In this document: positions 22,328 to 54,645 of the stretch, piece by piece | Layout of the letters: every line of letters begins with the position of its first letter | How positions within the stretch are numbered: the stretch's first letter is position 1 | Source: Mesaphorura yosii | Taxonomy: Eukaryota > Arthropoda > Collembola > Poduromorpha > Tullbergiidae | Direction: 5' to 3' | DNA: 64,000 nt | Assembly (NCBI GenBank): GCA_009869945.1 | Contig: WIXG01000231.1 | Coordinates: 1-64,000, forward strand | Notes under the pieces: generated by a model | Told to the model about the DNA's origin: nothing | Database searches by the model: none | The model's input: only the letters and a program-made list of their open reading frames with translations | Made by a program: the position numbers and the translations under genes

Positions 22328-22420
22328 ATGGGGATCGATCTTGACGACATCAGCTACAACACGGATATGACTTATCCGAAAGCGTACTCGACGACGTCCT
22401 CGGAGAGCAACTGCGATTCG
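22328..22420 (+). CDS. alternative first coding exon 1 of an unidentified large gene
   Basis: ATG in a good context (CCAAAATGGGG) opens 31 codons beginning MGIDLDDISYNTDM and ending in a Ser-rich stretch NCDS, followed directly by the strong donor GTAAGTG in phase 0. Acidic, Ser/Thr-rich, no signal peptide. It is far too short for a gene by itself, and it shares phase and design with the exons at 23229, 32060, 47000 and 53925. Inferred to splice to the common exon at 54592. Protein family not recognised. Confidence 0.55.
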
Positions 22421-23228
22421 GTAAGTGCATGAAAGATTCTGATCTCTGCTTGAAATTCTGTCTCAGCGCTCATCACGTCCACGTTACTTATTGTGTTACT
22501 TGTTATCTGGTTTCTCGGGTTCCTTGCAAAAATTTTTGACGTCAAATTATAAAATCGCGAGCTTGACTGGCTCGGCTGGCTGCTAATCTTGTTAGTTAAA
22601 ATGAAAACTCATTTATTCTTAATAATTTGCTTACCCTGACTGGAACCTGTCCAAGAGTCCTCTGTGTCTCCAATCCTCTTTGACTTTTGGTTGAAAGTGG
22701 GCTAATGGCTAATGTGCGAGCACGATGAGTTACGTGAGTGCAGAACGAGGTCCGCCGAATGTGGATCAAGATGATGATTAGACATTCGGATGAGAATGTT
22801 CTGCGGGCAGGCCAGGCAGACAGGCTCAAGACACGATCCAAATATAACAATATTCGTTTAAAAAATGTATTAATAGCTAATAGCTGCTCTGATATCAATA
22901 GTAAAATAAGTGCAGCGTTATATAACCTCTACAAACACGTACAATGTTGTCGTGAATGCCGCTGCCGTTCTATTTCTGGCGTCTCGGAGGAATGAGACAA
23001 ATATTTAACATTGACACTCTCTTTTTGTTTTGCATTACTGCTAATTTCTGAGAAAACATGATACTTTACTGTCTGAACACGTGAGACGTGGAAATAGTCA
23101 ACGAGAAATGTGCATTGTCGCAAAAAGTGAAATAGTAGCAGTGAATTTTTCCATATTTTAATTCTGTGCTGAACTCGTGAGAAATTTCTGGCGATCACGC
23201 AGCAAGCTGCTTGGAAGGTGGAACAATA
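22421..23228. other. intron or spacer between alternative first exons
   Basis: No further exon, repeat or RNA gene recognised. Presumably intronic and carrying the promoter of the exon at 23229. Confidence 0.35.
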
Positions 23229-23321
23229 ATGCACAGCGGCGGAAGCATAAAGCGGAACGAGTGGAGAATTCGACGGGATGACACGGTGCAAGTTGTCAAC
23301 CCGAAGTCAAAGCATGTCAAG
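23229..23321 (+). CDS. alternative first coding exon 2 of an unidentified large gene
   Basis: ATG opens 31 codons, starting MHSGGSIKRNEWRIRRDD and ending KSKHVK, then a donor GTAGGA in phase 0. Strongly basic, unlike the acidic first exon at 22328, so the two would give N-termini of opposite charge. The donor is weaker than in the other candidates. Same reasoning and same proposed partner exon at 54592. Family not recognised. Confidence 0.5.
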
Positions 23322-25319
23322 GTAGGAAATTAACTTCGTTTCATTCGCTGTCAGTTTATTAGCACTGAAATGCATACACCCACAGCACAATGTTGCTTGG
23401 ACTGAACCCAGTAGGCAGAAGCGTGTCAGAGTTATTAAATTAAATTTTTGCTGGACGGCCCGACATTGCATTTCCTGCTTCTTGAAGCGTGTCATTCTTC
23501 ATTTAAAAGAAAGTGTTTACTTTTCCAAACGCCAAAGCTTGCATTTGCGCTGTATTCAGTTAAGCTAGCTAAAGCATTATTTGCATAGCCATGTCCGCTT
23601 GCATAAATGAAAAGTTTACGTTGACGTTTTTGAGTGAAATTATGCACACAAGTGAAATGCCAAGCGGCATATAGGTCAGGTCGTTTTTTGCTAGACGAGA
23701 CTTTGTTTGTTTTCCTGTCCTGACATTTCGGGTTCCTTATTCGGTTTGAGAAAGAATCACGGGAGCATTCAATTATTTCCTGGATATGATTTCCATTTTA
23801 TTATGTGTATGAGTACAACTTTTTGAACGTCTTCTATGCAGGCCTAGTCGGGCGTCGTTTGTTGTTTGCATTCGTAGTTAAATTACATCATGCATAAAAA
23901 TGTTAAATTCCTCTTGTTGTTCTGTGGACATAAATGAGCAGGATAACGATTATTGTTCCGGTACCGTACTCGACTCCAAGAATAAAACTGACCTTTTTCC
24001 CCAGTACGCTTGACTTGGCTTCGAGTCAATTACGTACGGTGTACTGTACTGGAAAGTTCGTATCGCATGTATCGAAGTTTACTCCTGCATGGCAAAAATA
24101 CATTCGTGAAGAGCTTCGCCTTGCAAAAAGCACCGATTTTCAAAAAATAGTACACGCTAATATGCGTGTAGTGCAAAAATAGTGGCAGTGCTCGCAGATT
24201 TCATGAGCAGGTGTGCCAGAAACGGCTTCTCGCCATGCCCCTTCTGTCGTAAGTCGTACATGGCGAGCCCGACGATTCGAGATATTTGCACTACGATAAA
24301 CGATGGGTGACTGGCCCGAGAACGCGAAAACCTGGAAAAGAGACTCGTTTTATATTTCAAATAAAAAACTTTAATTACTTTATTCACTCGTTCTCGAACG
24401 TGTACTTCAATTTCCAGAGTCAAAGAAACGTGATTTTTCTCTTACTTTTGGCTCCTTCATGTTAAACTTCTTTTTTTTTACTTCTCAGAAGTATTGAAAG
24501 ATCTCACAACTTTAATTTACAAAATATTCATGTCGTCCGCGGTGCGATTGTTGTAAGTTGTATGCTCAACAAGAGAAATAATGCTTACTGGGAATTGAGT
24601 TCATTTAAACTGGAAAATTAGAATCTTGTGCTCACTACAAAGCGTTCTCTGTATGCAAATGAATAAAATTGAATCGAATGCCGGGCTCTTACAACTAAGC
24701 CCTCCTAACCTCTTCAGAAAGATAGGAAAGAAAGGTGCTTCAATGCGTTCTCGTTCTCATTCCTATTTCTCCAATAGTAATCCCATTACTACATGCATTT
24801 GGATGGAGAAAGTACTGTTGACAGAATTGATTCTTGTTTGCAGGAACTTGTTCTTTCAGCTCTTTCAGGGTGGACCATTCCGACAGGTTAACTGTGGAAT
24901 CTTCAGCAGGATTTACAAGTCAGGATGTGTTCAATGAAATATGTGCAATGCCTTTTTTGTAGAAATGATCCCAGTTTTAAGCAGAGGTTGTGATTCCATT
25001 AACTATTTTTCGACATTCCACAGAAATGAACCCAGAAAACGAAGGCGCTTCTCAATAGTGCTCACTTTCATTTTTGTGCTACATATCAATTTTAATCAAT
25101 ATAAGTAATAATTACAATTAGGAAAGACATTCGTTTATGAATTTGCAATTTGCATTCGGCTCAGGTTTTTGGACATCTCAGTAACTGGTTTAACAGCAGA
25201 CAAAATCTAGGAACAAGAAACCAAGTTCGCATTCAATTAGTCATAATGATCACCGAAAACCGAGATGCACTCCTAGCTACTTACGGGCTGGTAACTTGTA
25301 ATTAGAGCATCTTTCGTGA
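23322..25319. other. non-coding, presumed intronic
   Basis: No exon I can support. A short ATG segment at about 24206 ending at a GTAAGT in phase 1 was considered and not accepted. Confidence 0.35.
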
Positions 25320-26228
25320 TCATGTGACAAGTTTCTTTATCACAAATATGGCATCGTCCAACCAGTAGTAGCTTTGTCTAAGGTCTCCTTCGCACAGGTA
25401 TGGAAGACGAGTCCATCTGACAAGTTCCCATCCATTGGGTTCCAGAACTTTAGAAATGAACTGACTGGCTTGTGATAGGAATGTCGATTGCCCCGTAGTG
25501 ACTATGGGTAGTTGACTGATAAAGCCTTTGTCAAATTCTACAAATGGAGAATACGGAATCACAAATGAGACTACGGCTAATCCGCCAGGTTCTAGTCTTT
25601 CCTTAATGTCGTTAAGCATCTTAAGTGGGTCAGAGCATCGGTCCAGTACATTAAGGCACGTGATTACACTGAAACTGAAGTTTGTTGATGGCCAATTAAG
25701 CTCGTCCAGGAGGGTAAATCCCTTCTCGGCCAGCACCTTCTTCATTGCAGAACTCATTTCGGTTGCGTACACTTTATAGAAGCATGGTGCCATTAACAAA
25801 GTCGTGGAACCATCGCCGGCACCGATGTCGAGTAAGCTGTCGAGCATTTGACCGTTGTAGTCAATTAGATTCTGGAACTGCGACGAGGAGAACACGTGCA
25901 TGGATCCACGTCCTAACATTCCATTCACTGTTGTCTGATGTAGCCACATCCTAAGGAAGGTGCCGGCGATAGAGAGCCAAAGCTGCCAACAGACGTTGTC
26001 CGTCGTTTCGATGGAAGCTTGGATGAATTCTGCTGTGGCAGTGTCGCAGTGGAACTGGATAAACTTGTCAGACACTTGATTCGTTGTACAATCGGATTCG
26101 CCAGCGTTCCTGAGGTTCGAGAAGTCGACTTGATACCATTTGTTTCGATCGAAGGCTATCAGCTCCTCGTCACTCTTCATCTTCTCGTACACGGCTCGGG
26201 CAAGGGCGGATCGTGGACGAAGCGACAT
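25320..26228 (-). CDS. METTL9: METTL9-like protein-histidine N-methyltransferase
   Basis: Single open exon of 303 codons including the stop, from the first in-frame ATG (MSLRPRSALARAVYEKM). METTL9 proteins use SAM to methylate histidine in HxH motifs with a small middle residue. Family marks seen: DRNKWYQVD, TTVNGMLGRGSMHVFS, the SAM-binding LLDIGAGDGSTT, VYATEMS, the CLNVLDRC segment, LEPGG, and the ending TRLPYLCEGD followed by YYWLDDAIFVIKK. Length fits the family minus its N-terminal signal segment. The frame stays open upstream to 26268, where the minus strand reads ATTAGCAG, a possible acceptor, so an upstream exon carrying the signal may exist; I found none convincing. It lies antisense inside the inferred long intron between plus-strand alternative exons. 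The protease genes nearby are rich in short introns, yet this gene shows none. Confidence 0.88.
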   Translation of the reverse strand: MSLRPRSALARAVYEKMKSDEELIAFDRNKWYQVDFSNLRNAGESDCTTNQVSDKFIQFHCDTATAEFIQASIETTDNVCWQLWLSIAGTFLRMWLHQTTVNGMLGRGSMHVFSSSQFQNLIDYNGQMLDSLLDIGAGDGSTTLLMAPCFYKVYATEMSSAMKKVLAEKGFTLLDELNWPSTNFSFSVITCLNVLDRCSDPLKMLNDIKERLEPGGLAVVSFVIPYSPFVEFDKGFISQLPIVTTGQSTFLSQASQFISKVLEPNGWELVRWTRLPYLCEGDLRQSYYWLDDAIFVIKKLVT

Positions 26229-29200
26229 GTTGACGTCTTGCCGAATCAGGTGAAACTTTAACTCCACTGCTAATGGACAAGGAACGGGTACTTTCTAAGC
26301 TAAATTTAAAGCAGATGAATGAGAGTACAGCCCACCTGTAAACAACCTCGTATTACTTGTTTTAAATTCAAACCGCTTTGTAGCGCCGAGCCGATCTCAT
26401 TCTTTGTTCATTCAATTCATCTCTGTGAGCCAGCATTATTAACCACTTGCGATCAACTCCGACGCGATAGTTGCAAGGTCGTTGAGTATGTCTTGAACTT
26501 CGAAATACATTCTGCATTCTCTATTTAATTAAGTTATTAGTCTAATTATTTAAGATACCTCAGCCATAGGCTCAATAATTGTACACATTTTCAAGGGACC
26601 ACTGGGATAATGCTGATTCATGAACGAAGCGTTCCTGATCTCAATGAATCAATGTCTTATCACCAAAAATTAAACTACTGTGAGCATCAGCGCAGTCAAT
26701 TCAACGCGCTAATTCTGCTCCACGCTGAATTCGCATTTCCTTCCACTCGTCTTCAGTTTCATCACTTAACTGCAAATAAGGCAATGCAGACATGCGTACA
26801 TTCAAGCGTGTGTAATGAATACTTGAATACAAAGGACTCATGCAGTTTTAAGAAACTCGACCTCGTCGCCACAGAGCGTCCACGTCTACTTCTACCCGCA
26901 CTCGACGGTGTGGTGTAGTATTGCGAATTTCTTGGTCTTGGCAAGAGAAAGTTATTTGTTTCTCGGTGGGCATCCTTTTTCCTTTTTCTGCACCAGACTG
27001 AAAACAACCAACGACTCGAGTCATACAAGGCAACATAAAGCCCCAAAGCACATAACCTCAGATAGCATACCTTATAAAGTATTCTCGAAGCCGATGCCGT
27101 CCCAGATGCGGGATGCAATGCAGGATGCGTTCAAAGAACAAAAGCAAGCGCCATCACTGAACAATTTCATTTTCTCCAAATCTTCAGTTCAATCAGATGA
27201 TCCACTTTGTAAATATTTCAAGTGGTTTCGTGATTGTGATGGTTTTGGTCTTTTAGTGATTGTGGCATAGATTTAAAGCTGTTATTTCCTACCGCAGCCA
27301 CGACAGCATCAGGTCAGACAGGCCAGGCATCAGAATATATTTTGTTTATGATTATTATGGAACTTGCGTACTATTTTTCACCAGCTAGAGCTAGACTTAC
27401 ATTTTTACATGTAGAGCACTGTATCCTGTGTATTGGCAAGCCGAATCTGTCTTCCTCGTCTCGTTGTTTGATTCGCTCTCTCTTGCTTTCTCCCTGCGCT
27501 TGTAGCGTATATTCTTTGGAGGAAGAAGCCTCTCAACTCAGTCAGCGTGCTCTCTTTCCTTTTCCACTCTCTTAGTTAACTTCCCTCCTTGCCGCCGAGC
27601 CGCTTCGCTATTTCAGGCTCCTAGCAGGCGAGTCGTATTCGCAATTCGAACTTTGTGTTTTCGTTTTCTACCTCGTCACAGTTCTCAGTGGATTTTACTT
27701 GACGTGATTCTGTCAAGCATTTTTCCGTTAGAGAAGTGAGTTATGCGTGTCATTGAGTCTGAGGCAAGTGTGAGAGTGCAGATCTGTACAGCGTGCATGC
27801 ATGCAAGAAACTAGGAACCAATGTCCAAAGCAATTGAATTTTCGGTACATTACGCCACCACATCAAAAAGTGTGTTGTGAAACACATTCAGTAAACGATT
27901 GACAACTACTTGCTTAGATATTAGTTGGACAAGACAAGACGCACCGTGCAGGCAGTCTCAAATTGTGTCAATTTATGACCTTTCAAAGCTGCGATACGTG
28001 GTCGGAACGCATAACGTACGCACACTTATAGGTCTACCAACACCAAACCGCAGGAAATTTGTTTCATTCGGTTTAACCTCCTCGTTTTTTTATACTTTTT
28101 GTCACATTCAACAAGTGTTTCGCATACTTTCATACAATGGACAAAAGAGAATAGACACACAGAGCATTCAGGCAGGCAGGCATGGCACACGAAACTTTTT
28201 TGCTTTCTTCATTCACTTTCCTCCGGTCCGGACTTTCCTCTTGTACTTGTTCCTGCTCCAGCTCATATGCTATGCGGCCGCACGTACGTACAACGCGCCG
28301 TGTTCATGCTTCAGCATTTAGTTTAGTTGCATTTCGTCCTCTCGCTCACATGCTCGGTTCCCCATCTCGCTTCTTCTGTTTTATATCTCTTAATTTACAT
28401 CTGGATCACGCACCAACGTGCTTTCTCCCTGTATAGCACCAGTGTTTAGTGGTGCAACTTGTGAGCACACAGATTACACAAGTAAATCCATTCATACGGC
28501 ATACGGTGAAAGGAGACGGTGAAGTGAAAGCACGCTTTCACATTAACACGTTGTGTAGTTAGAAATGAGAGTACTTGAGCCGAGTTTTATGTGAAAAGTT
28601 ATTAAAATCACAAATAATTATACTCTTCCTCTACGTGAACAGTGCTGTTCTCGGTTGTTGGTACTGGTTAGCAAAAATTACAGTCTGGTTTTGTATTTCG
28701 TGAGGTGACCGTATAATTATGGCGTGTAAATTGTAGTGTTCCTCGTTCCTCCACTCAACTTCCTCTCAAGCAGATAGCGTCCGAGATAATTGTCTTGGGT
28801 TGTTGTTTTTGTTGTGCTGTGATGTTGCGAGCTTCGTGCCTTTGTTAGCTGACAAATTTATGCGTCGTCCACAAGAGAAGAGAAAGTCGGCCAGAATTTA
28901 AATTTTGATGCCAAAAGGCAGGGAAGACGAACAAGAGTCAAGACGTAATATTATGGTAGTATTTGATTAAACGCTATCTTGTGCAAACTTCGTTTTCGTA
29001 TGGTTTATGGATTTGTTCCAAATTCCACATCGATGAGCACTGCACTCACATGCATTAAGCTGGTGTCTGGTAGTGCAGCATCTCAAATTAATCTCTAGAA
29101 CTCTGCTGCTAGTGATTTACAAGCACCAAATAGAATTCGAAGTATGAGTGGTCGATCAATCAATTTTTAGGGCGCAGCACAATGTGCATTGAATTTCCTT

Positions 29201-32059
29201 TCCTGTGGGATGAATAGAGGAAAATGAAAGAGAGAAAAGTAAGAAATGATGAAGAAATCATATTAAATATGTAGTCAAGAGGAGTCAGTCGGTACAAGTA
29301 GTACAAGACAGTCTTTCTCCAGCCGCCGCCACACAGGATGTGAACCTGCCGAGCCTCGTTACTAGCGTTACCGGCAGCGATAGCAGAACACGGGGTCTAG
29401 CACGGAACGGAAAGTGGGAGCAAAAATTTCGTACCTCAATTTCGTACAACTTTCCTCATAATGAGATGCTGTCTCACGCCGCACTTGTTCTTCTTTTTAC
29501 CAAAAGCAGGTCGAAAAAGTTGAGTTACAAATTGCCTGCATTTTATTGCCTGTAAATATATTAAAATTGGGAAATACGTTGATGAAAAGTGTTTTCACGT
29601 GAAACCGGTTGCTTCAGCTTGGTCCAAGCAAAGAGAAACGGTTGTCGTGTAATTGCACGTAGGCATGGGCAGGAAGGAACCAAGGCATGGCAGACACATC
29701 ATAGCATGTCTAATAATAATTTCACGTGGTGCTGCTGCGACCTTACTTTGCTGCGCCCATCTTTACTTTAAACACTTATGATCCTTATTATTTAACTTCA
29801 CGTATACATTTTACTTCTTACTTTCACCCAGCTTCTTTTTACTTTATGCGCACATACTCCAAAGGAACTTTAGTTTCTTTTGTAAATAAGTAAAAGTAAA
29901 AGCTGTACCCTGAGATGCCAGCTGTACAACACAGCAAGCATGTTCATCTTCGCGCCGGGCCCTATATCTTCATCTCACCGCACCGATTTCGTCCTTCCAT
30001 TCCGCTCTGCTCTGCTCTGCTGGCTGTCCACAATGTATTGTTTTGTTTGTAGTCCTTCTTTTCTTCTCCTGCTGTAGCTGAGTTGTGTATCTTCTGGCTC
30101 ATCTGTTCTGAATCCTATAATTGCAACAGCTGTTTCTGTTTCTTCTCTCTCCTCAGCATGGGACAATGGTTTAGTGAAAAGGTTCTGTGAAATTGCATTA
30201 GAATTGAGGTCGCAGACGCTCACGTTGGTGATAGGACCAAGCAGGCTTGACATTTTAACAAGAATCTGATTAGGAGAAAGTTTTCGTGTCCGAGATACGG
30301 CCATTTGCTCCTTCGAGTGTGCTGGTACTTTGCTTCATTTGAGGCAACTGAGATTGTTTATAATATACACAAAGATGTTAAGCCTCATGCTAAATTGAAT
30401 TCTAATGTTGAGATTTGCTTCAGCTCTAACTGAAATTAACTTTTTATTGCGCAGGTTCCCTGCACCGTTTTGTGTTGCCTCCTCTGTCCTTCTGCTCCCT
30501 TTTATTACTTAATATTCCTGAATTAAGTCATAATAAAATTGTTGCTGACAAAGTTTCGGGCTGTTTTCTTCTTGAAACTTTCTCAGCGCTGAGCTGTGAG
30601 ACGCAGGCGTGCATGCCATATGCTTTCGTTTATGACCGCATTTTATTTGGAAAGAGACCGAAAGTTCAGTGGATTTTACGAGATAACATTGCAACGCAAT
30701 TCCAGAAAACCATAAGCACAGTTTTCTGAAGCCACAAAATGGTCTCTTGGTATTAAGCATTAAACCTGCTGAAATCTCTGCCAGCGCATCAAGAGGCTTT
30801 TAGTAAACAATTTTGAGACTCTCTCCGCATCGAGTGTGGTAATAAAATATGCATTTCTTTGCCATCAGTAATAAAATCAAATCCTTACTTCATTTTCCAG
30901 TCGAAGAGTCTGGAAAGATGAAGACTCTTTATTTTTAAAAAAAGTGCACTATGCGCAGTCCATAAAGAGCTTACGACTTTCTCTGAAATGTGCTTAATGG
31001 ATCACGCCAACAACGGTCATTCCGAAAGTTCATAAACATTTATCTTAACCAAATAAGTTTGAATATAAAGGAGCTTTTCCAGCTAAGAGGCATAATAATG
31101 CGAGCTAAGGCTGTTTTAGCTGCAAACGTTCCTGAAGCCTTGTACTCTACTGAACCAAAAGGTCATCGCAATTACTACGCATGAATGCACGCTGCACAAC
31201 AAGACAACAACCCAATTACACTTTATTTCAGGAAACACCTGAACTCCAAAAAATTGTGAGGTCAAATGTGGAATTATGTTCAGGTATTGATAACTTTACT
31301 CCATTGTTCATGACGCCACGAACACAAGCAAGCTTCGTCTTTGTCTGAAAGTTGACTGAGTAGCAGCAGCCCAAGGCCAGACTGAAAAGAGAGTAATCTG
31401 TAATCTAATAAGAACCGCATCATCTAATACGTTTCGAGACGCATCATCACCGCTGCAGTAGCTCGTTTCCAATAAACACGGAGTTGACACCAGCGACGAA
31501 CTACGAAATAAGGTTAAGTTCCCTGTACCTTGTGCCTGATCCTGAAGTTGAAAAAGTGAGACCATTATCATAATCCTGTGCGAAAAGTTAACGGCAGAGT
31601 TCGAGCGAGAGATTGTGACCGGGCGAGTCAGTGAAAGCAGAGGCGGCAGTAAGAAGTACTTTTACACAATAATAACATTAATAATAAAAATTTGTCAAGA
31701 AAGTTGAGCACGATCTCAGCCATGTGCGTGACTAAGTTTATAAAAGAGGAAACTTAAGACGAACATAAGCCTAACGCAGTGCGTAATGTCATTATTAACA
31801 ACATTATAAATGGAGAGAAAATCTTCCAAGTTCCGTTCCCGTTCCGCAGAGGAAACATGAAAAACACCTTTGGCCTTGCAGCACTGGCAGCAAGGGAGCG
31901 AACAGGACGACAAACATCATTTATTAATGATAATAAGGAGAAGTGAACGAGGAAAACTTCCTCTTGCAAGAGCACGATAAAAGTTCTCAACCTCTTAAGT
32001 AAATCTCAAAATTTAATATTCTGGCTTCTGTGAACTAACTTTGACTGGAGCGAGTAAAG
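26229..32059. other. non-coding, presumed intronic
   Basis: About 5.8 kb without a supportable exon. It includes the promoter side of the METTL9-like gene. A 109-codon minus-strand frame at 29975-30304 and several shorter frames show no recognisable domain. Minor GCAGGCAGG and TCTGC repeats occur near 28165 and 30003. Confidence 0.35.
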
Positions 32060-32167
32060 ATGGCATTTATCGATGCCGGCGGTGCTTCGAGACTGGGTGG
32101 CATGAAAAACGCTACGAACGCTCTGCCTGAAGGCGAAATGGATGCACTCCTGCTTGGTAGGACGAGG
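32060..32167 (+). CDS. alternative first coding exon 3 of an unidentified large gene
   Basis: ATG (context TAAAGATGGC) opens 36 codons beginning MAFIDAGGASRLGGMKN and ending LLLGRTR, then a strong donor GTAAGT in phase 0. Gly/Ala-rich with a short basic end. Matches the other ATG exons in size, strand, donor and phase. Proposed to join the exon at 54592. Family not recognised. Confidence 0.55.
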
Positions 32168-38100: not shown

Positions 38101-38433
38101 TTACGGAAGAGTACGCACTCCACATAAAAGTAGACAGCTTCCATCTCCTTCCTCCAGTCTTCTGTGCTTCGTGCACGTGAAATGCAAAGGCAAATCGGCG
38201 GTAGGAAAAGTTCTGACGATGACATAAACAACGGCGGCAGCAACAGCATCAGTGAACCGCCAATCCTAAACCGCATTTCTCTGATTTCAATCTCATTCGA
38301 AGACGAAGGAATTGCTTGTTTGCACATTGTGCATGTGTGCAGTCAAGTCACTGTATTATTCGGCAATATTTCTATTTATTTCTGCGTCTTTGATTATATT
38401 GTTATTATTATTAATATTGCCAAATCACATCGA

Positions 38434-38483: not shown

Positions 38484-38562
38484 TGCGTTATTAGAAATTG
38501 AGTGTAAGACAGTCAGGCTTATTCTGCTCTCGAGATAGATTCTCTGTCCGTATTCGGTTCGG

Positions 38563-38630
38563 AGCAGCAGCAGTAATAATAATCTCATGGTCATCGTAGC
38601 CAGCAATAACAATAATAAAAACAAATCCAC
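38563..38630. repeat. CAG / AAT microsatellite tract
   Basis: GCAGCAGCAG followed by TAATAATAAT and further AAC/AAT triplets. Simple-sequence DNA in the presumed intron. Confidence 0.65.
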
Positions 38631-40549: not shown

Positions 40550-40705
40550 TGGGCTGGGATCAAAAGTTCCCAAGAATTGCAAGCTACATTCCTGGGACTA
40601 GGATCAAAAGTTCCTAGCCAATACAGAATGGTTGTCTGGGATTGCGAACAATTGTTACCAAATCAAACAATCTGCATCCCTGGGACCGGGAACAATTGGT
40701 CCCGT
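40550..40705. repeat. four imperfect copies of an approximately 43 bp repeat
   Basis: Units start with CTGGGA at 40554, 40592, 40636 and 40680, spaced 38, 44 and 44 bases. Units 1 and 2 share GGATCAAAAGTTCC; units 3 and 4 share GAACAATTG. Units 2 and 4 are near-palindromic (CTAGGA...TCCTAG, GGGACC...GGTCCC). The array ends in CCCGTTAAA, a TTAA like the piggyBac target site, about 160 bases before the piggyBac reading frame. It may be the element's subterminal repeats. Confidence 0.65.
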
Positions 40706-40862
40706 TAAATGTTTTTAATTTTCCGTTTACTTCTTCTGAAACGTCGAGTTCATTTTCTCATTGGATCTGAAAAATTTCGTGTTCAGTGGTGAGTGTGTGT
40801 AATGGTGCCTGATTTCCCATTGAAACCGCTCTAATCATCGAATTTCTCGGCGTGACCTGAAG

Positions 40863-41967
40863 ATGCCTTACCATTTACGGTCAAGACTGGTCGCGGAGTC
40901 CTCCTCGTCATCCTCTTCGCAGTCTGAAGCCGAGGAACTTAGCCAAGATGGGGGTCTTCTGCCTGAACCTGACTCGTTGGGTAACAAACCAAATGAAACA
41001 AAACACTTGCCAAAAGATTCACGTGCATTACAACTTTTAGGAATATCAAAGGAGTATCGACTGAATGTGACTCCAGAATTATGGCGATAATTCAACCCTG
41101 TTTATATAGTCATTATAAACGCTAAGTTGGTCGTCTTTGGAGTTATTCCGTCCATATCTCAACATAAATCTTCTGGGTCTTTGTCGATAACTACTTCACG
41201 TCTCCTGATTTGGCACATCAACTCAGAAAGGCAGCCTACGTTTGTGAAACTTTACGTTCAAACAGGAGGCACGTACCGAAACTGGACCAGGGCGAGTAAT
41301 TAGCAAGAGGTGATGTCAAAGTGTTCACTACTGATCAAGAGCCCAGCACTGTGATGATAGAATTGTGGAAGGACCGACGGAACGTCTACCTACCTGAGTC
41401 GAGGAAACATTTCCAGTCATTGTAACTTAGTGTTGTGTAAATCAGTTCGTGTGGCAGATGATATCGACGGGGGTTCCACACGGAATGAAAACTGTCACAT
41501 CGAAATCAGGCACGGTGAAGGAGAAACCTGGAACTGTGGTTCTATACAATCGGCTGGCAAAAGGAATTGACTTGGCGGACATGTCAATGCAATACTACCA
41601 CCTTACAAAGAAAACAGCCAAATGGTACAAGAAGCTGTTCTTCAGGCTCCTGGATTTTGCAATCTTCAACGCGTTTTGTATGCGCTGATCCCTGAAACCG
41701 AAGACAACGTTCTTGGAATTTCGCTTCAACTTAGTCCGTCAAATCCTTAAAATATTCGGGGGACCGACGCAGGTTGGGAATCCGCTGTGTCTGGTTGAGC
41801 GTGATTTTCTGTGCACCAACCCAAGACGTCACGCATTGCATCGGTGCTCTGTCTGCCCGAATGGTGCCATGAAAAAGGAATCAAGAGCTTCGTATCGGTG
41901 CAAGCAATGTAATTTACCGATGTGTATTGAATTCTTCGAACCGTATCACACAAAATTGCACTTTTGA
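40863..41967 (+). pseudogene. piggyBac-type transposase remnant
   Basis: An ATG frame opens with a Ser/Glu-rich acidic N-terminus (ESSSSSSSQSEAEE), as in piggyBac proteins. Further down in other frames are VDNYFTSPDLAHQL and a following SNRRHVPKLDQG, the conserved DDE-core region, then YNRLAKGIDLADMSMQYY and KTAKWYKKLFFRLLDFAIFNA. It ends in a C-terminal cysteine-rich finger, HRCSVCPNGAMKKES then YRCKQCNLPMC...YHTKLHF. The frame is broken by several stops and frameshifts between about 41090 and 41710, and part of the catalytic core is missing, so it is dead. Terminal inverted repeats were not located. It sits in a presumed intron of the plus-strand gene. Confidence 0.82.
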
Positions 41968-44900
41968 GTAGAGTTAGTTTCAGTTCAGGTCGCAAAGTTT
42001 AAATGTTGCATTTGAGTCCTGTAAAAACTTCAAGTTCCACTTCTTACAATAAATCACTGAAAATCCTCCCCAGGGAGCGGCTTGTCAATGTAAAATCTCC
42101 ACCATTGATTAGCAAATGCAAGTTCAGCTTGATAACTAATTAATTGCCCATGAAAACACATTTTTCCCCAATACATGCCCATGCTAAAGGGTAAATTCAT
42201 GCTTGAATTTCTTGAGACATTCCCAAATTGGGACTGACGCTCTGAAGGTTTTGAAAATTTAAAAAAAATTAGGATACCCGAGAAGCTTCAGTCAGGTTTT
42301 TATGGCTCACTGACCAGTTGTCATAAATCAGAGCAAATTTGTCAAATATTCAATCAAGGGCTCACATTTCGTGGCAACTACCACTGCTGTTGTGACGTGA
42401 CGGAGGTTTGTAGTGCCAGAATAGTAAGGCACTTTTCTTGTTCATTTTTATTTCCTGTCGTTTTCACAACACACGAAGTCTGGGTCTGTCGTTATATTGA
42501 GCTGTCGGCTGTCACACTCGGGGAAAGTTCCAAATCGACTTTAGCGAATGCGAACTTGAGCTGTCACGCCGCGGCACTGCAGGAAGTAGTCGAAATATCA
42601 GAGATCATCATCATCAACTTCATCACCTCCTCACCACGCCACACCATGCCATTTGAATTTCTTTCGCATTTCGCCGTGCCCATGCCTACTTTTGGACCTT
42701 TGTTTTTGCCACTTTTCTTCAACGGTGGCTGCGGCTGCTTGAATAAGAAAATAAAGATGCGCATCAACTGGAACGAAACTCGCGAGGCATGGAGTGGGAA
42801 ACTGGAAACCTCATCTTTCTGTCGAGGTTGACTTTTTTCGCATTTCACATTTCGCCTTCTCGTTTCAGAATTCGCATCTGCACTTCGCATTTCGTGCGCT
42901 GTACTTCTTTTGTTTCTAATCCGTTTCATACATGCTTTCACAATCTTCAAGTCTGGAGATTTTCTTTCCCTTTGTCATTACCATCTGTGGCAGCGGCCGT
43001 GGCAGCAGGCAGCATGCATAACTATAAAATATACACGCGTGTGGCATATGGCGGTGACATGCTTACCGCACTCGCATTCACATTTTGCACTGCTTCAAGT
43101 TGAAAATTTGGTTGCATGAATTGCCGCTGAACGAGTGTCAGACCGACTGCTGGCCTAGTGCGTTTTCAAGTTAGGGAAATTGAATGCCGTCCTCTTCCTT
43201 CCCTTTCACATTCTTACACTCGCATTTTGTGGCTTGAAGCGTACAACTCGTAGAAGTTACAAATGCGAGGTTATAATAAAAGGCTTGTCGCTGACAGCCA
43301 CGACATATTTATTACCGCATCACGGAAAAGGCGTGCGCGTACCGAAGAGTACAATTTTTGCGAGTTAATTACGAGATTACAAGAGTCACACCAGTTGCCT
43401 GCCTGCCGCAGCACGCCTGTCCTTGTTACACTCACACGTTTTAGAGTGGCAATTACTGCGAGACAGATGCGCACGACCACAAATGACATCAGCACGAAGC
43501 GTGAATGGGTAGTTAAAATTGCATTTAGGAAACAGGAATTTTACGAGTCCCAATTTGGTAAGTTGTAACAATCGGTCGTCAACACTGCAGTAAATCAGGC
43601 CCACATGGAAAGCAAAAAACAAAAGTTTACGACTTTTCCTTTGTCCCGGCCTTCCATTAGTTTGGTACCAGTCAGAGCAGGCAGAAGCTTGTGTTTTGTG
43701 TTTGGCTATTTTATTACCGGAGGCAAGAAATTACGAAAGGTAAAGAAAAACATGAGTAGAGACTAGTCGTAATCATAATGGCACTGATGATCGTGATAAT
43801 CCACCACAGCCTTCTGCCTCATTTTCGTTGTTTTGGCCTTTTCGAGGTCGTGGGCGCAGGCATCGCATGATCCTATCAGCACAAGTTGGCTGATGTCAAC
43901 CAATGTAATACTTCGTCATGAGTATCACAGGATTAGCACACTTTTAATAGGGATCTTGTTAATGCTGTTGCTGTTGCTTCACTTGGCTGAGGCTGAGTAC
44001 AGGCAGGCAGGCGGTAAAAGTAATCGCATTGTTGACACTTCTTTCCTTTCGCTAACGCACTCAGGCAGGAAAGGAAAGGAACTTGTGCCACACAGCAGCA
44101 TAGTGCAAGTTGTGCAAGTTTGCTTCTTAGCACGGTTCGAGCACGAACCAGCAAAGAATTGAATCTGTGTGTTCCATCCTCTGCGCTGCGAGTGATGCAT
44201 GGCTTTTCTCCTCCTCCATAATAACTCTCTCGCACAGCAACAGTGTGTGCGGTGCTACGGTCTGTGCGGAACCTGCAGTTCAGTTTTTTACTACTTTATT
44301 CCACTGTCTGTCCAAACAACCAGTCAGCCAGCAAGTGCAAACCGACGACTGACTATTCATAGACCATGCCATTGTGAGTGCGAAGCTTTGTGAGAAAGAA
44401 TGAGTTGAGCATTAAGCACGTTTTGAGCATCGCGCACACAGTGCACACGCGTCAAACGCAATTTCCGCGGTTTGTTCTCACAAATTGTTCATTTTCCACA
44501 TTTTGGTGCAAAAGTGCAGTGGATATTTTCATACGCAAAGGCACGCATCAGTTTTTGAAGTGTTTTTGTGCAAAGTCTGTGGTATTGCTACAAAGCCGGG
44601 TGTCCAGCGGTAAATCTTCCTTTGTGATCAAACGTGGTAATCCTTTCTGCACGTAAATACCAGCTTTGGACATTCGACTGTCAGCGTCGGTTCAATAAGA
44701 GACGGGTTCTAGATTAGATCACACAGCCAGGACTGAATTTGAAAGAGATACGAAATTCATTTCATTTCTGAGAAGGACGCAAGCACTGCATAGGAACAAG
44801 TGTTGAATTTCAAAATGCGCGACGCAAGCATGTTTCATAACAATGCAATGAGGTGTTTGGCAGTGAGACCAGTGAAAGGTGGGCAGGCACAAGACTGTTA

Positions 44901-46999
44901 GGCTCACAGACTTATTTGTATGCATAGATTGATAGCATATTGGATCATCATCTAAATTTAGTTTCCAATTCCGTCAGTCTGGACGACAGGGATAAGGTGA
45001 AAGCGAGACGCGACGAGAACCCAATAAGGTGAAAGGAAAACCTCCGGGAAACATTCACCGGGTGCGACGTGAAATCCTGCGCTTTTGGAGCGCGTGCATG
45101 AAAGAATAACTCTTGTTGCAGCCGGGTTACATTTCTTGTCCAAATTGTTGCAACTCTGTCGTGATAGGTTAACAAGATAGCAGAGCTAACTTTCATAACT
45201 CAGTGAATTGACCGGTTATTGTGTGAAATCTGATCTGAAGTAAATCGAGTAGACGTTGGAAATCTAATTAAAATCGCTTTGGACAGCTAATTAATTTAGT
45301 TAATGAATCTGAAGTATTCCCGAGCGTGCTGGAGCGGAACTTCAAAATTGCACGTTAGCACGTGATGTTGCTAACCTCATTCAAGTCGGAGTGTCCAGTT
45401 GCCTTCGCCAAGCCAAGCGTTGGTGTGATGTTGCGTGAAACATTCTCGGTTGAATCTTCTTTTTCATTTCCTTTCTCCTACTCGCATGCTTGCACGAACG
45501 AACGTCCCGACGAAGGTTGACCTCAAATGAATTTTTATCCATTTCAATCCTAGCATTTCTTTGCCTTGACTTTTGCAAAGGTTGAGCCTCTCAAATGTTA
45601 CAAGTCTGCATCGTTGACTTTGACTTCCTACTGTGCGAGTAGACAACAAACACTCTTCTCGAGAATTTAATTTCGTGCGAGAAAGTTCTATTCTAGTGAG
45701 ATGCATTTACAGTTGGAAGGCAATGAAATGAAGGAAAGATTTTGCGCGCTTCCTAATCCATGATTGGCACTCAAATAAAAATTAAATAGAATTCACGATC
45801 CATGTTCGAAAATTCGAAAGCAGTAAATGCCAAGAGAATTTTAAAAAATCCACTCACCAAAAAGTAAATACCAATACAAAGAAATTTTCGTGGAATCGAA
45901 TAATAATTGCGAATGAAAATGCTCTCATTACTTTTTATTGTCAAGGAATGAATATTTGAAAAACCTGGAATCGGCGAAAGTGCTCTTTGATCCTCAGCGC
46001 AAAATTCACGCACAAGACAAAACCACAGCCACAGCCTTGCTTGGCTTGTCAAAAGGCAAAATGCTTGAGCCCCATCAAATGAGTTAGAAATCAGAGAGCT
46101 TTGAAATTTACCATCACTGCCATACGTCGTTCAAAGTTATAATTTTGATGAGTGGGATTTTCCTACCATACACTGAGGCTGAATTGGCGCAGAAGAAAGG
46201 AGTTGAAGGTCTCAATGGCAAGACAAGTGAGCGAGGATGAGCTTGAGTTTAACATGATTAAGCACACGAAGCATGTTAATGTAATAATCCTTACTCATGT
46301 AATAGGAGATGAGAGTTAGCTTCAGGGTCGTTTATGATTCTCCTCTGCTTCCCTTTCTTCCATTGCTTGTGCTGGTGCGCGTGCTGGAGAAAGCGAAGGA
46401 AATCGGTTTATGAAAGCGCCCCGGGTCTACAGCTGTTTGTGCCGCTGCTGCCATTAAGGGCTATTGCCAATCGTACTGGCATTCGTACTCACTGTCTTCT
46501 TCCTTCTCTTTGTCTTCAACAAGTACTTTCTCTTATGCGATAGGCGGTCGGTGACAGAGGAATAATGGCCGAGCAGACATTTGTAATCTCTTGTAATCAC
46601 TTTAAGAGTCTATTATACAAATATGCATTGGAAACAGACAACATGAACTCACACGTCAAGCGTGGTTGCGAAGCGTCAACCACTAAACTCGAGTGAACTG
46701 TTCTGGGCATTCTAATTACAAATGCACCAAAGTTGTTAGGATTCCAGTGACATGCAAAGTGAAACTGAGAAATGTGCAATGGAGTTAAAGAATCTATTAT
46801 GTGGTATGAAACGACGTGCAAGAGACCACACATGAAATTAATTAAAACCTGAGACTGGAGTGAAATGAGTTGATTTGTGGGGCGACCGATCTTGTGCTGG
46901 TGAAGGAACTGTCGGGGTCCCTCCTTCGGCGGGAGCCTTGCTTCGTTCTTAATCTCCATCGTACTTTTGTCAACCCTGTGGTACTAATTACGAGACTAG
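41968..46999. other. non-coding, presumed intronic
   Basis: About 5 kb, no supported exon. Several frames of 80-140 codons lack recognisable domains and have skewed composition from the underlying DNA. Confidence 0.35.
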
Positions 47000-47101
47000 A
47001 TGACTCAAAGCAGACCAATTGCTGGTTCCTCTGGCGGTCGCACGCGACTTCATCGGAGACAAGACAGTATCCAAGACGAAAAAACTGCCAGATTCATTCG
47101 G
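47000..47101 (+). CDS. alternative first coding exon 4 of an unidentified large gene
   Basis: An in-frame TAG lies immediately before the ATG, so the start is well fixed. 34 codons, beginning MTQSRPIAGSSGGRTR and ending TARFIR, are followed by the donor GTAAGC in phase 0. The exon encodes a basic, polar peptide with RRQDS, which fits the basophilic kinase pattern RRxS/T. Same strand and phase as the other alternative exons and same proposed partner at 54592. Confidence 0.6.
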
Positions 47102-49023
47102 GTAAGCACCGCATGCCTACGTTTTACTTGTATACATTCCGCATAATCTACAATCCACGTGGAGGGTAGATTTGGTGCAACGCATCAATCACTGTTAAAG
47201 TTGAACAGAACAGTTTCATTTTATTGGCAAACGGCTTGATAAACCTGCTATCAAATACTGTTAATGTTAATACGTGTTTATTAAGATGAATAACATGAAC
47301 GAATATTGCGTCCGGGGTCCGGTAAGACAAGAAAAATAGCCCACGCTTGTGTCCAATGAAAGGGAAATGATGAATAACGCTGTTTGACAAATTAATTCCT
47401 CAATCTTTTATACATTCGTCTGATTTGTTCTATCGACGGCTCGACTTCTGGTATCCAATATAAATGGACGCAGATCTGCCGTTGGAGTTCTGTCACAGAC
47501 GGCAATTGAATAGAATTGAGTCTTGATTCCTTTTGTCCTGATTTATGATTTCTGAATACTTGCCGGCTGCTCTTCAAGGACGCTGGTTGCACCGTAATTG
47601 GATTTGGGTTGAAGTCTTCCTGATGTTTCCATTTCCTCTGTTTATTTATAAAATTGAAATTTTTCATATGCTTTAACGCATCGCTCAGCTATTTGCAGTT
47701 CTTGAGTCTAGTACGTATCACTTAAGAGTATGGCGTACAGCAGCAACTCACGTATAATTTGCATCGTGTAAATATTTGCGTAAGAAATTTCATGCGTGTT
47801 TATTTTTAGAAGCAGAGAGATGCAAACATGTTTCATACAAGTAGTGCAAAGAATCATGGGATGTGACAGCTTTTTGTAGAGTTTTAGATGCTGAGATTAA
47901 GATTTTATTGCATGAGATAATTTCATTAGGATAATGAGCACGGCGACAGTATGATTTTATTAGCATGACTAAAGAATTAGGTCAGGCGTCAATTATTGCG
48001 TCCTCCTTAAGTTTCGGGCAGGGGAATTGTCGTAATTCATTATTCAGTTGACGCACATCTGCGAAGATTTCCACTGTTATCATGCAATGGTAAATGACGT
48101 GGGAAACCAAGGGAAATGGAGCGTTGCAGAACAATTTTATTCACACATCGCATTATCCAGTTTTATTATTTTATGCCTAGTCTTTTGTCTACACGTGCGA
48201 TGTGCCTAGTCTGGAATGGTCTTTCATGGTTACGGTTACGACACAATTTAAGGCATCAAATCTGGTCGTCACGAATCGCGAAAGCAAATAAGTTAATGGC
48301 GACAGTGTGGTATATCCAGCTGAGCACCACAAAACTTGAGTAGAAAAGCAACAGGCATTTCTCCTGAGATTTGCTGCTACAAATGTCGCCACTAAAATTG
48401 CACATTACCAAATTTATTCGATTCACATAAGGATAACGTGAGAATTACGAGCAATTTCGTCGTACCTGGTGCCAAATTGCGTCGGAAACTGTTGAAAACT
48501 GGTGGAAGACCAAACGCATGACAATAGTGATACAATGTGGAGCCCGGAGTTTGAAATTACGCGAAGTATTTTTTATTTTTTGGGTGCACAAGTTTTTCGT
48601 AACATGCACGTTCGTTGTATGAGCTCTCACCCATCCTGAGTGCAAGCTGCGGTTTAAAGTTGTAAACAGAAGTTGATTTTATGAGGAAACCGAGTTAACC
48701 ACACGTCTTCTGCATAATGTTTTTTGCCTTATTATTGAAAGGTTGAGTGCCTTTTTTACGATCAACCTTCAAACGCTGCGCTGTTGGAATCAATCTTTCA
48801 TTTCTGGTGGCTGGCTCTTACGCATTCCAAAAGAACTTGGGAACTTTACCCTAGTAGGTACCACTCGGTCCAAAGTAAACTGAAAATTCGCAGTGATGAG
48901 TTTATCATTGCTGTTGGCTCCGTGCAGAGTACAGACAGCGAGAGAAAAGCCGGTGGGAAGAAATGAGAAGCATTAATCACTCCATAATTTATAATTTACG
49001 AGCATAAACACATCATTTGGAAA
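47102..49023. other. non-coding, presumed intronic
   Basis: No supported exon, repeat or RNA gene. Confidence 0.35.
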
Positions 49024-49182
49024 ATGGCCGGAAGATTTCTTGCTGTTTTGCTCTGCACTTTTGCAAATGGACAAGACAGAAACAAAAATACTTTGGCGGG
49101 CACAAACAACAACCCACGAATTCCTTTTCCCATAAAATTGTCTTCTTACGGGACAGTTCAGACAGCATGCATTTTACGGTAG
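49024..49182 (+). CDS. possible small secreted peptide (weak)
   Basis: A 52-codon frame with ATG context AAAATGGCC. The first 16 residues look like a signal peptide (MAGRFLAVLLCTFANG), followed by a polar Asn-rich segment and one Cys near the end. No homology recognised, and a frame this short can arise by chance. It lies inside the presumed long intron. Confidence 0.2.
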   Translation: MAGRFLAVLLCTFANGQDRNKNTLAGTNNNPRIPFPIKLSSYGTVQTACILR

Positions 49183-52100
49183 TCGTAATTAGGCCGGTGC
49201 GATAATTTATGGTTTTGTTTTCAAGCCGCGAGACCAAGTGCCGAGGTATCTGAAGTACAAACTGTCCTTGCGTGTGCAAAGTACAGGCAAAAAGACAAAG
49301 TGACAAGCAATACGGAAGGGAGCATTAATCTAAAGCTCATTAGTATGCAATATTTAATGCGAAGGGGCATTTAAAGTCAGCATGCATAAATAATCTTCGA
49401 GTTCTTCGTATGTGCTTTAGTTTTCCCGCGTGAAAGTGAAAAGTAAATAAAGATTAAAGGCAGCTCTGCTAGTTGATAATTCTTTATGTGAGAGACTACA
49501 AAGGCTGTCAGTGGGCATAAAGCATGTTGATGCACAACCCTTGTTAAGAACCTTCTAAATAATGCACGACATGGCCACAACTTCAATTCAAGTACAGCCC
49601 GAGCTGTTGCATATTTCAGAGACATCATGTAAGAGAAAGCAGTACAAGCGCCAGACTTTCTCTTTGTACAATGAAAGTGTTGAGTGCTTTGTTTCGGTTG
49701 TTCAACGAGTTGCCAGTAGATGTGAGTGGCTCCCATTCCCTGCTTTCGTACACCTTGTATGTAGAAAGTAGAACCAAGTAATACAAACAAACACGTAACA
49801 CCGTACAATATTATTTGCTGTTAGCTTCAAGCTTGTGAGGAATTAACTCAAACACTTGTTAATTATTGAATATACGAAATACTAAACCACACTTTAATTT
49901 TTAAAATGCATCAATTTCCTCCGTGCATTTTCGCAATGAGGATTTTCTAAATAATGTCTTCGCCATGTGCGTTGCGCTGGAGCATCTCCATGTTCCTTTT
50001 GTTATGTTAAGTAGTACGTGACACGACCCTTTGTTGTCCACCCTACTCATTATCAATCTTGAGCCCGAGCCACTTCACGACTTCCTTTCCGATTGTCAAG
50101 AATGCGTGGGTAAATACAAAAGTCGAGTGCCGCAGACTGGCTGCGATGATGGAACGGAAGTCGGTAGACAGGCATGACCAAACTTCATTTGTTTTCTTTA
50201 GATGATGAATGATCTTCCAATGAGATATGAGTGAATGAACCTGTACTGCACAGTGCACAGTACTTTAGTCATGTAGTGGTAAAACTCTATTACCAGATCC
50301 CGTTTTGTGGGACTCACACAATCTCTTGCCTGATGTTACGTGAATGTTTGATGATGTGACGCCATTTTATTAAGTGGCCATGCTCACGTTCGACAGTCTG
50401 CACTGTTTGTGTGAAATGAACGGAGTGACTGCTTTTTGAAGGAAAGCATATACGTGATCGTGCGGAGAAAGAAGTGAAGCAGAATTACGATATGATGACT
50501 TTACTCTTGAAGGAGAAAGTTCCACATTAGCAGCACGATAATCATGCGATTTTAGTCCCAAGAGGTCAATCCATGCGGTCGTCATCAGGATGTTCATGGC
50601 ACGAGAGCAGCCAACAGCTGCTGCCGCTGCCGTTGACTGTTGAAGTAGCCGAGCGTGCCTCGCTCGGACTGTCCAAAATGAGCGCGTGAAGAAGGTTAAC
50701 TTAACTTTTTTTTTGTCTTGACTTGGCTTACTTTCACCGAACTGTCGGAACCTCTGCCAGTCCCTCATTCATAATGTATGCGTGCTTGTCAGAAAGTGAC
50801 GCCTGAATTATGAGACCACGCACAAAGTTGACGTCTTTACTTTCGGCTTCGAGTTTTTCTCATTTTTCTTAATCTCATTCCACCTCCTTAAAATTCCGGA
50901 GTGAAAGCAGTGAAGCGGACTGCTTTTCATTCAAGAACATCTATTTGCTTTCAAGATTTCGGCAACTCGGAATCTATTAAAGTAAAATTGATTTTTGTGT
51001 ACTGTGCGCGATCGGGTTTAGTTTGCAGACTGCAGGCACGCACGGGAAAGTGGAGTGGATGAGGAAGTTTGTTGATCTTAACTAATTGCTTCTGCCTCTC
51101 TCTGTAATCTGAAATTTTACGATTTCGTTTCTTTGATCATCTCACTCGAAGAGGAGCAAATAGACTGCTCTAATTTTGTTATGTAAATTCACTGATTGCA
51201 TTTACTCGTAAAATTTGTGAATCGAGGACTGGTTAGAATCAACAATCAGCATTTGGTGACTTGACTTGAGTCAGCACATCGTTTCAATCTTTCAGGGAAG
51301 AATCAGCTTTGCTTTAGCATTGACAGCGTAACATTTGGACGAATTGGAAGCAAATTGAGCGCCGTGATTTCGGATGACTAATTCATTTACTTTCTTAATT
51401 TACGCCGAATTAATGTGTTCATTAATGTGTGCTGAATCAGAATTACTAGTGGCCTCTGTCACCGAGTACTCGGCGACAATAATAATAGCATCATGTGCCA
51501 GGCACGCTATTAACAGAATTGAGTAAAAGCGAAGGAAAATATCTAGACTTTATAAAGTATACTTACCAGAATGGGGGAGAGTGGGAAGAAACTCTGCCAC
51601 TGTTAAATCCGTGTAATCACAGTTTTCGAGATTATCGCACACAAACAACCTGGTGCCAATTAAGATGTCGAATACCCGAAAATGCTGCCCGGATTTTTTT
51701 TTGTCCGAACCGCGAGTAAACTTAGCTAAAACATTCTGACAGAGATTGGGATCACGACTGTTAAGTCTGTTTCTGCTTATCCCTCACCGTTTTCGAGATT
51801 TTTCTGCACAACCAAACTGTCGCCAATTAAGAAGCAGATTGGGACGGGAAATGGGGAGACTTTGTAGTCAATTTTGGGTTAGTCTGCTGGGAAACAGGTA
51901 CGAATGGAGGTTCTATTTATGAATGAACAGGAAGCTTGTGTAATGTGTAAGAAACTATTCCTACCAAATAAATAGTCGGAGAAGGAAACTTGAAGTTGTA
52001 GTGTAGCGCATACTCGTATTCTATAAATGTGAAAAGCGGAAAGAAGGCAATAAAAATGTGTCTCTTGACACTACTTTCGCTGAATATTTTACCTCGGCGC

Positions 52101-53924
52101 TGCATTTTGAGGTACTGAACCCAGGGTCGAGTTATAACCTTGAGCATAATGGCAAAAAATGGACCTGTTTCTTATTTCTGGGACAATTTCCTTTCCCGAG
52201 TCTCGTGAAAGTGACTGAAAGACTCAGCTTTATATTTCGTTTACTCCTGCGTTGTCCGTGCAGTATGCGGCGGCACCTTTTCATCATTCTAACGCGTGGA
52301 TTTCGCTTTTCGCACTTCATCCGGAGCAATGTGTTGTGGTGACTTTGCCCCAGCGGAAGGAGAGAAAGGCACAAAAACCAAAATCGCGGGCACAAACCCT
52401 CTTGACTCGTAACACATAGCCTGCTTTAAATATGGCTTAAGCTAAGACCGTTGTAACGTTCATTTTTCTTACCAAAAGTCGTGTCGTGCCGGGCCCAGAC
52501 CCGGGACCCACAAGTCCTTTGACTTCAGCCCAGCACGCTTGACATGTCGTAAATATCCAAAATAGCACATGGTTATAGTATTAAGTAATCGTTAAGATCC
52601 TTGGTCTGGTACCCACGGGCCCAAGCACATCGCGCGCAAGCATACAAACAGTCCGAGTTCTGCAAACAGTTGCAGATTTTTATCTGGCAGGCTTTTGATA
52701 CGTAGTGTTTACGCATTGTAGTCTTCTATACTTTCCAATGCACAGCTCGAAGAAGCAAAGCTCAGCAAAAAAATTTATTATAATAATTGCGTGACTAAGT
52801 TGCGTCTATAGTCGAGTTTCCAACTTCCAGGCATGCAGCGTAGGCCCGATAAAATCTTTGCCCCTGTTCTGATTTTATGCAAATGCGGAGTTGTTCCGTG
52901 TAATTTTGACGTGAACAGCAAGGCCGTTGGGTCGGCCTGGGATTGAGAAAACCGCAGAGCTCTCGCCCTGCCGAAATTTCAAACCACCGCATTGCATATT
53001 ACGTCGAAGGTGGAACAGAACTCACTCAGCAGCTCATTCACGATTCATTGAAGTGCTAGCTTGGAAGTGGAAATGAATTTTGTGTAGTGTAGCAGCGTTA
53101 CGAGAAATGCGCTGTTCGCTTTGAACCGCAAAGCCCATGTCCTAGTGGTGGTTGCTGGTACATTCACTGCTACATTGGAAGGTAGAATGAGTCCCACCAT
53201 GGGAAAGGAAAGCACAAAGCAGAAAAGCTTAGTTTGAGAGAAAGCGAAGAATTCAAAGCTTCTTTCCCATACTTTCTCTCGAGCTGAAATCGTGCAATCT
53301 CGCGTTGCCCTTTCGAAGCCAAGCCAAGCCAGCCAAGTTGCTTCACTCCACTTTTCTCGCCCAAACTTAGCGAGCACGAGTCTCAACTCATCCTTTGACT
53401 GGGGAACATGACATTTTGTTCGTCATGACTCAAGTATTTTTCTTTGTTCTCCGTTGTTATTGTTCATAAAAATTGGGCACGGACACGAACAAGAGTTTGT
53501 ACTTTTAGTCGCATATTTTGGCAACATTTTCCTTTCTTCAGTTTTGTTGCCATCGTAGAGTTTGGCGTCCTGCTGAGCGCAGCACAGCGCAGTCTGAAGT
53601 CCCCGTTTTGTTAAGGGTTGTGGGGAAGTCTGGCCACTCAGCGACACGACAATAAACGACTTTGCGGGGAGGACAGACAGTTGGTGCTAATTCTTGGGGC
53701 CGAGAGTCCTGTAGTCTGTGGTATTTGTGTTTGGAGTCCGATTGCGCATAATTGTGCCAATACATCATTGATTCGAATCCTTCTTCTGTGGTCCCAGTAT
53801 TTAGTGGTTGGGTGTCACCTCTAAGAAGCAGAAGCTGAAGTTTTAAGTTGCTCAGATCTGAATTGTGAGAGTTTAGTGCAGATTACTGTGCTATTAGTAC
53901 AAGTGCGATTACGCGTTCAAGAAC
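49183..53924. other. non-coding, presumed intronic
   Basis: About 4.7 kb without a supported exon. Its right end is presumably the 5' UTR and promoter of the exon at 53925. Confidence 0.35.
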
Positions 53925-53987
53925 ATGAATACGGTTCAAAGCAGTGGTGGGGGTGGAGGCGGATACGGCAAGAAATGCAAGGACGAC
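53925..53987 (+). CDS. alternative first coding exon 5 of an unidentified large gene
   Basis: ATG opens 21 codons: MNTVQSS, a run of six Gly, then YGKKCKDD, followed by the strong donor GTAAGT in phase 0. It is the first-exon candidate nearest to the common exon, 604 bases away, and splices to it in frame. The underlying DNA is a G-rich tract. Family not recognised. Confidence 0.6.
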
Positions 53988-54591
53988 GTAAGTCTTGATT
54001 AACCAGACTTGCCATGAGTCTTGATATTATAAGGCCTTACAACTGTTACAACAGGCAATACTAGAAATACTATGCAGTTTTGTCCACATTTTCGCGGTGA
54101 TGTCTTTAGAGAATTGTATGACAAATTACTGCTGTCTACATTAATTTTAAATCCACTACATTTCTATTCTATTCCCCATTCAGCTCCTTCATTACGTTTG
54201 CAGTCGTAGTCAAAGACTCAAGACGGATTTGTTCAGACTCACGCCATGTATCATTCTAGTCTGCCTTCCTTCTGCAACGAGCATGATTTAGATGCAAGAT
54301 TAGATTACGTGGACTGCCTGCACGTACACGAATATAGAGAAACACTAGCATTAATTTTAACTTCACTTGTACCAATGTAAGAGTGAACCGATGAAACAGA
54401 AGCAGACGCTCTCTTTTCTTAAAACTGTTAAAACATACGATTATTGCTTTCATTAGATTTCCACCGCGTTCTCATCAGTTCTCATGACCACTCGAAGGAA
54501 GCGATGAAGGTGAAGGCGTTGCCTGACTCACGAAGTGAAAAGAAAGCAACTTTGTGTTTGTCAAATTTAATCCGGCAGTGTCCATTTACAG
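53988..54591 (+). other. inferred intron
   Basis: Begins GTAAGT and ends TCCATTTACAG. Connects the exon at 53925 to the exon at 54592 with frame kept. Confidence 0.5.
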
Positions 54592-54645
54592 TTGGACGAG
54601 GTACAGCTGCTCTTCCCGTACAAGTGCAAGCCCATAAGTACTCTC
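54592..54645 (+). CDS. first common internal exon of the unidentified large gene
   Basis: A 54 nt exon between acceptor TTTACAG and donor GTAAGT, phase 0 on both sides. It encodes 18 residues, LDEVQLLFPYKCKPISTL. It fits every upstream ATG exon in phase. I do not recognise the family from this fragment. The next exon is not found before the window ends, so the gene body must lie to the right. Confidence 0.55.

Follow-up and report, generated by a model that had tools for sequence, protein, structure and literature searches.

The stretch analysed here (hereafter the window) comprises the first 64 kb, or 64,000 nucleotides, of contig WIXG01000231.1 (125,860 bases) in the 93 Mb genome of the collembolan Mesaphorura yosii. 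Trypsin-like frames stand in a row on the minus strand at 2179-13207; the one at 4149-5057 matches Pfam Trypsin (1.7e-41), and the others were recognised by eye. On the plus strand, positions 17222-20701 hold an XK-related protein as a single frame that spans 1160 residues between stops; its N-terminal part is long and of low complexity, and its first 552 residues match Pfam XK-related (1e-76). To the right of this gene lie five short ATG-initiated frames and a 54-nt open piece, which a preliminary description had presented as alternative first coding exons and the common exon that they feed. A METTL9-type (DREV) methyltransferase frame (25323-26294, minus strand; Pfam, 8.2e-78) is situated in the putative first intron between the frames at 23229 and 32060, and a transposase remnant (41431-41685, plus strand; DDE_Tnp_1_7, 3.4e-09), which we take to be piggyBac-like, is inside the putative introns. 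Beyond the window the contig carries a gene of the dipeptidyl-peptidase-like DPP6/DPP10 type, a tail-to-tail paralogue of it and, at 106601-107707 on the plus strand, a Chitin_bind_4 cuticle-type frame (3.5e-06) that continues into a tail rich in Met and His, in which QGKR units recur. The features that bear on the gene model are collected in Table 1.

Table 1. Components of the DPP10-like gene, candidate first exons and paralogue. Positions are those of the contig; donor scores, in bits, were obtained with a hand-entered matrix.
Feature	Position	Strand	Remarks
Candidate alternative first coding exon, best support	22328..22420	+	31 codons, MGIDLDDISYN..., donor 22421 (9.0)
Candidate alternative first coding exon, moderate support	23229..23321	+	31 codons, basic, donor 23322 (8.4)
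Candidate alternative first coding exon, moderate support	32060..32167	+	36 codons, donor 32168 (10.3)
Fourth exon of the preliminary description, without independent support	47000..47101	+	open to phase-0 donor 47102 (9.7)
Candidate alternative first coding exon, good support	53925..53987	+	21 codons, poly-Gly then KKCKDD, donor 53988 (7.5)
54-nt common exon of the preliminary description; at best an optional cassette	54592-54645	+	open, phase 0-0
Exon 2, the likely common exon	70465-70678	+	phase-0 start, encodes transmembrane segment, 6.5 kb right of the window
13 further exons of the DPP10-like gene	71517-77078	+	frame ends at 77078
Paralogue of the DPP10-like gene, tail to tail	79240-85740	-	serine kept, GWSYGG at 79818

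The preliminary description had left the gene family open; the sequence to the right of the window allowed a DPP6/DPP10-type gene to be identified by homology. Exon 2 (acceptor 9.2 bits) and the exons that follow it, with borders assigned manually according to splice sites and homology, join into an uninterrupted frame of 877 residues in 14 exons. A query beginning with the first exon at 22328 matched Pfam DPPIV_N (1.7e-77) and Peptidase_S9 (3.1e-49), and together with a short predicted N-terminal tail and one transmembrane segment of the DPP6/DPP10 type these give the domain composition of the family. The best solved relative of the part up to exon E6 is DPP6 (6.1e-47), and that of exons E7-E15 is DPP10 (2.2e-91), followed by DPP4 (1.5e-85). 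Sequence comparison of the ectodomain by itself does not set DPP6/DPP10 apart: in the first part, FAP scored higher (142.8 bits) than DPP6 taken without its membrane segment (120.8 bits) or DPP10 (119.9 bits). The exon-2 region decides, and we chose the DPP6/DPP10 type over DPP4 because the score for DPP6 rises by about 43 bits (from 120.8 to 163.8) once this region is included, compared to 11-13 bits for DPP4 (from 103.3 to 114 and from 112.5 to 125.1). Alignment with the DPP6 chains begins at ELVGSNPPQRNWKG, which corresponds to ELVAATPTNRNYKG in the first residues of exon 2. The hydrolase part keeps its motifs for Asp and His (HGTADEKV and YPDEGH), and the catalytic serine is replaced by Gly (GWGYGG at 76237, aligned with GKGYGG of DPP10), such that the protein does not have the intact Ser-Asp-His triad of active DPP4-like peptidases. 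A Shal-type (Kv4) potassium channel gene is present in the same genome.

All five of the short plus-strand frames run open from their ATG to a GT donor in phase 0, as the preliminary description had stated. The ATGs at 22328, 53925, 23229 and 32060 each have A at position -3, against a background of 30.7% of 841 ATGs, and that at 22328 also has G at +4; the ATG at 47000 has T at -3 and is immediately preceded by a stop codon. Each of the five, with or without the 54-nt piece, gives one open frame into exon 2, which follows from the phase 0 shared throughout and is no separate proof. In the 500 bases before the exons, an initiator-like match was found for three of the five and a TATA-like match for two, with no consistent pattern. 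Local alignment of six peptides along the contig revealed no convincing second copies (best non-self raw scores 35-43, self scores 95-180). In searches of the whole genome, the best match of the 22328 tail besides itself had an E-value of 0.47 and the 23229 tail matched only itself; no relatives of the tested tails were found in the minus-strand paralogue. We also considered whether the exon at 53925 might be linked to the tail that exon 1a encodes in vertebrates (MNQTA with Cys-13), and gave this no weight given that the initial MN and one cysteine are all they have in common.

The preliminary description had put odds of 1 in 81 on a common phase 0, an argument that fails because phase 0 on the plus strand is not in excess in raw counts. 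In the interval from the XK-related gene to exon 2 (20702-70464), ATG-to-donor frames of 30-300 nt with donors of at least 7 bits number 13, 12, and 6 in phases 0, 1, and 2 on the plus strand and 8, 9, and 11 on the minus strand. We also ranked 47 candidates of at least 45 nt, taken from both strands and all three phases, by codon usage trained on 2741 codons of the contig's other coding sequence. Plus-strand phase-0 frames make up 11 of these 47 candidates and hold all of the first four ranks, which are occupied in order by the exons at 22328, 53925, 23229, and 32060. By a hand calculation that assumes independent candidates, which they are only roughly, the chance that all four would come from these 11 is about 0.002. 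The exon at 47000 was placed 25th.

The ranking was repeated for the same interval in 13 variants that altered the donor threshold, the scoring per codon, or the training set, with training slightly unlike that of the main ranking. The exon at 22328 ranked first in all 13. At donor thresholds of 6 and 7 (four runs), the same four exons (22328, 53925, 23229, and 32060) remained on top; at a threshold of 5, the plus-strand phase-0 frame at 68882 came third and a phase-1 frame at 69110 fifth; and at a threshold of 8, the exon at 53925 was excluded because its donor scores 7.5 bits, leaving 22328, 23229, and 32060 on top. With per-codon scoring, the frames at 25246 and 66559 outranked 23229, and 32060 fell outside the top six. 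Training without the XK-related gene placed 53925 second and 23229 sixth, with 32060 outside the top six; training on that gene alone placed the three exons 53925, 23229, and 32060 second, fourth, and sixth; training on the DPP gene alone placed 23229 third and 53925 sixth, with 32060 again outside the top six; and training on METTL9 plus protease sequence placed 53925 second and 32060 fifth, with 23229 outside the top six. This last variant also gave the exon at 47000 its best rank in any run, 8th of 47. Competitors that entered the top six in some variants include 68882, 69110, 25246, 46148, 66559, and others. On the basis of these ranks we regard support as firm for 22328, good for 53925, and moderate for 23229 and 32060.

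We consider it likely that the short exons are alternative starts of the DPP6/DPP10-type gene, which would extend over about 55 kb, and that they are spliced to exon 2 at 70465. Several putative promoters would give rise to transcripts, one per promoter, that open with different short coding exons; 22328 and 53925 are the best supported of these, followed by 23229 and 32060, and each first exon would be spliced in phase 0 across 16-48 kb to exon 2, at the start of the transmembrane segment. The predicted product is a type II membrane protein with a DPP4-like ectodomain devoid of the catalytic serine and, on the cytoplasmic side, an exchangeable tail of 21-36 residues. If vertebrate DPP6/DPP10 and the fly protein DPP10 are taken as a guide, it would bind the animal's own Kv4 (Shal) channel, and its tails may set variant-specific gating or targeting. 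The layout at this locus, four well-scoring phase-0 candidates together with a phase-0 exon 2, retains the core of the preliminary description, in which several first coding exons lead to one phase-0 common exon; that idea fits a DPP6/DPP10-type gene because exon 2 starts in phase 0 and the vertebrate family uses alternative first exons. The interpretation was right in kind and its odds were wrong, and it probably named the wrong common exon and included one first exon too many, that at 47000. If the proposed gene model is correct, phase and codon usage alone can locate the 5' region of a gene at least 16 kb from its nearest recognisable exon.

Several other explanations of the same frames have to be weighed against this model. 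It is possible, although on balance unlikely, that the DPP10-like gene really uses just one of the ATG exons (most probably 22328), or two of them, as first exons, with the rest being chance frames that end at donor-like sites. The lack of any overall phase-0 excess is in keeping with such a reading, as is the fact that 22328 is the only exon to come first in every variant while 23229 and 32060 fall below sixth place in certain variants; against it stand the main codon ranking, in which plus-strand phase-0 exons fill every one of the first four places, and the A at -3 that all four of these exons share. We think it considerably less probable that the ATG exons are all due to chance, or are the beginnings of short or non-coding transcripts with no relation to the DPP10-like gene, and that this gene has some other first exon. 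An ATG in the frame of exon 2 does occur just 5' of its acceptor, making an unspliced start conceivable, but the codon ranking of the four exons and their agreement with exon 2 in both strand and phase argue against this alternative, and the sole recognised gene in the interval, which is METTL9-like, is on the opposite strand.

The arrangement originally proposed, in which all five exons feed a constitutive common exon at 54592, appears very improbable. The 54-nt piece is indeed open in phase 0-0, as the preliminary description had reported, and it preserves the frame into exon 2; its acceptor (5.7 bits) and donor (6.4 bits) are also inside the range of the exons of the DPP10-like gene (acceptors 2.9-10.2 bits, donors 4.6-11.8 bits). 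It is not singled out, however, given that five phase 0-0 open exons on the plus strand and five on the minus strand equal it in splice quality, two and three of which, respectively, also match its codon score; the poor support for 47000 argues against the arrangement as well. We rejected the piece as the common exon on the grounds of these equals on both strands. Exon 2 at 70465 is the more likely common exon, and the 54-nt piece, which is without independent support, may at best be an optional cassette.

The minus-strand paralogue provides a view of how the serine may have been lost. It retains all three of the Ser, Asp, and His motifs, the best match of its hydrolase part is DPP4, and its counterpart of exon 2 lies at 85736-85527 on the minus strand with 49% identity. 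The hydrolase segments of the plus and minus copies share the same residue at 107 of 213 positions; compared with DPP10, the plus copy shares 90 of 208 and the minus copy 84 of 208. In a tree of nine hydrolase segments, in which FAP and other invertebrate DPP10s are left out and the deeper forks are open, the two copies pair (80/83) apart from a clade of DPP6 and DPP10 (100/99). Because the copies pair in this tree and the paralogue and fly DPP10 both keep the serine, the comparison suggests, with moderate support, that the serine was lost here independently of vertebrates. We detected 41 first-exon candidates upstream of the paralogue, the best of which are mostly within or beside other open frames; the minus-strand phase-0 frames at 103731 and 87513 remain, and they look unremarkable. 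A fuller scenario, which we put forward tentatively and regard as rather doubtful, starts from the tail-to-tail duplication of a DPP10-type ancestor: one copy would have kept the serine, and the other would have lost it independently of vertebrates and would carry swappable tails from alternative first exons, so that the combination of an inactive ectodomain with exchangeable cytoplasmic tails would have evolved twice. If the vertebrate arrangement of first exons is in use here, a serine-less copy beside a sister that keeps the serine would constitute a natural experiment in the passage from peptidase to channel subunit.

DPP6 and DPP10, also known as DPPX and DPPY, are Kv4 auxiliary subunits that tune potassium channels, and their alternative first exons tune the A-type potassium current in vertebrate neurons. 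In vertebrates, these first exons supply the variable cytoplasmic tails of both proteins, and the transmembrane and extracellular parts form a common core (PMC3973911). A second study reports that the catalytic serine has been replaced in vertebrates only, by Asp in DPP6 and Gly in DPP10, and that fly DPP10 retains both the serine and peptidase activity, binds rat Kv4.3 and modulates this channel (PMC4873792). Among the literature matches listed, we found no account of alternative first exons in an invertebrate DPP10 gene, which does not prove that none has been given.

The collembolan gene resembles DPP4 and FAP in its ectodomain family, and both match parts of it about equally well; it differs from these active S9B peptidases in its replaced serine, and from DPP4 in the exon-2 region, where DPP4 gains 11-13 bits compared to about 43 for DPP6. 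Judged by the published description of the fly protein, it is like fly DPP10 in being an invertebrate DPP10-type protein, but it has Gly where the fly protein is described as having the serine and peptidase activity; in keeping the serine, the minus-strand paralogue looks nearer to the fly protein so described. In the nine-row tree the plus copy pairs with its own paralogue and not with vertebrate DPP6/DPP10, and its tail sequences are unrelated to the vertebrate ones as far as seen. The likenesses to the vertebrate proteins lie in the domain make-up, in a transmembrane segment that can be aligned to DPP6 starting at ELV, in the rest of the ectodomain, for which DPP10 is the best match among solved structures, in Gly at the serine position, and in the apparent use of alternative first exons for the tails. 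Taken together, the locus apparently presents, in an invertebrate, a gene architecture known for the DPP6/DPP10 family.
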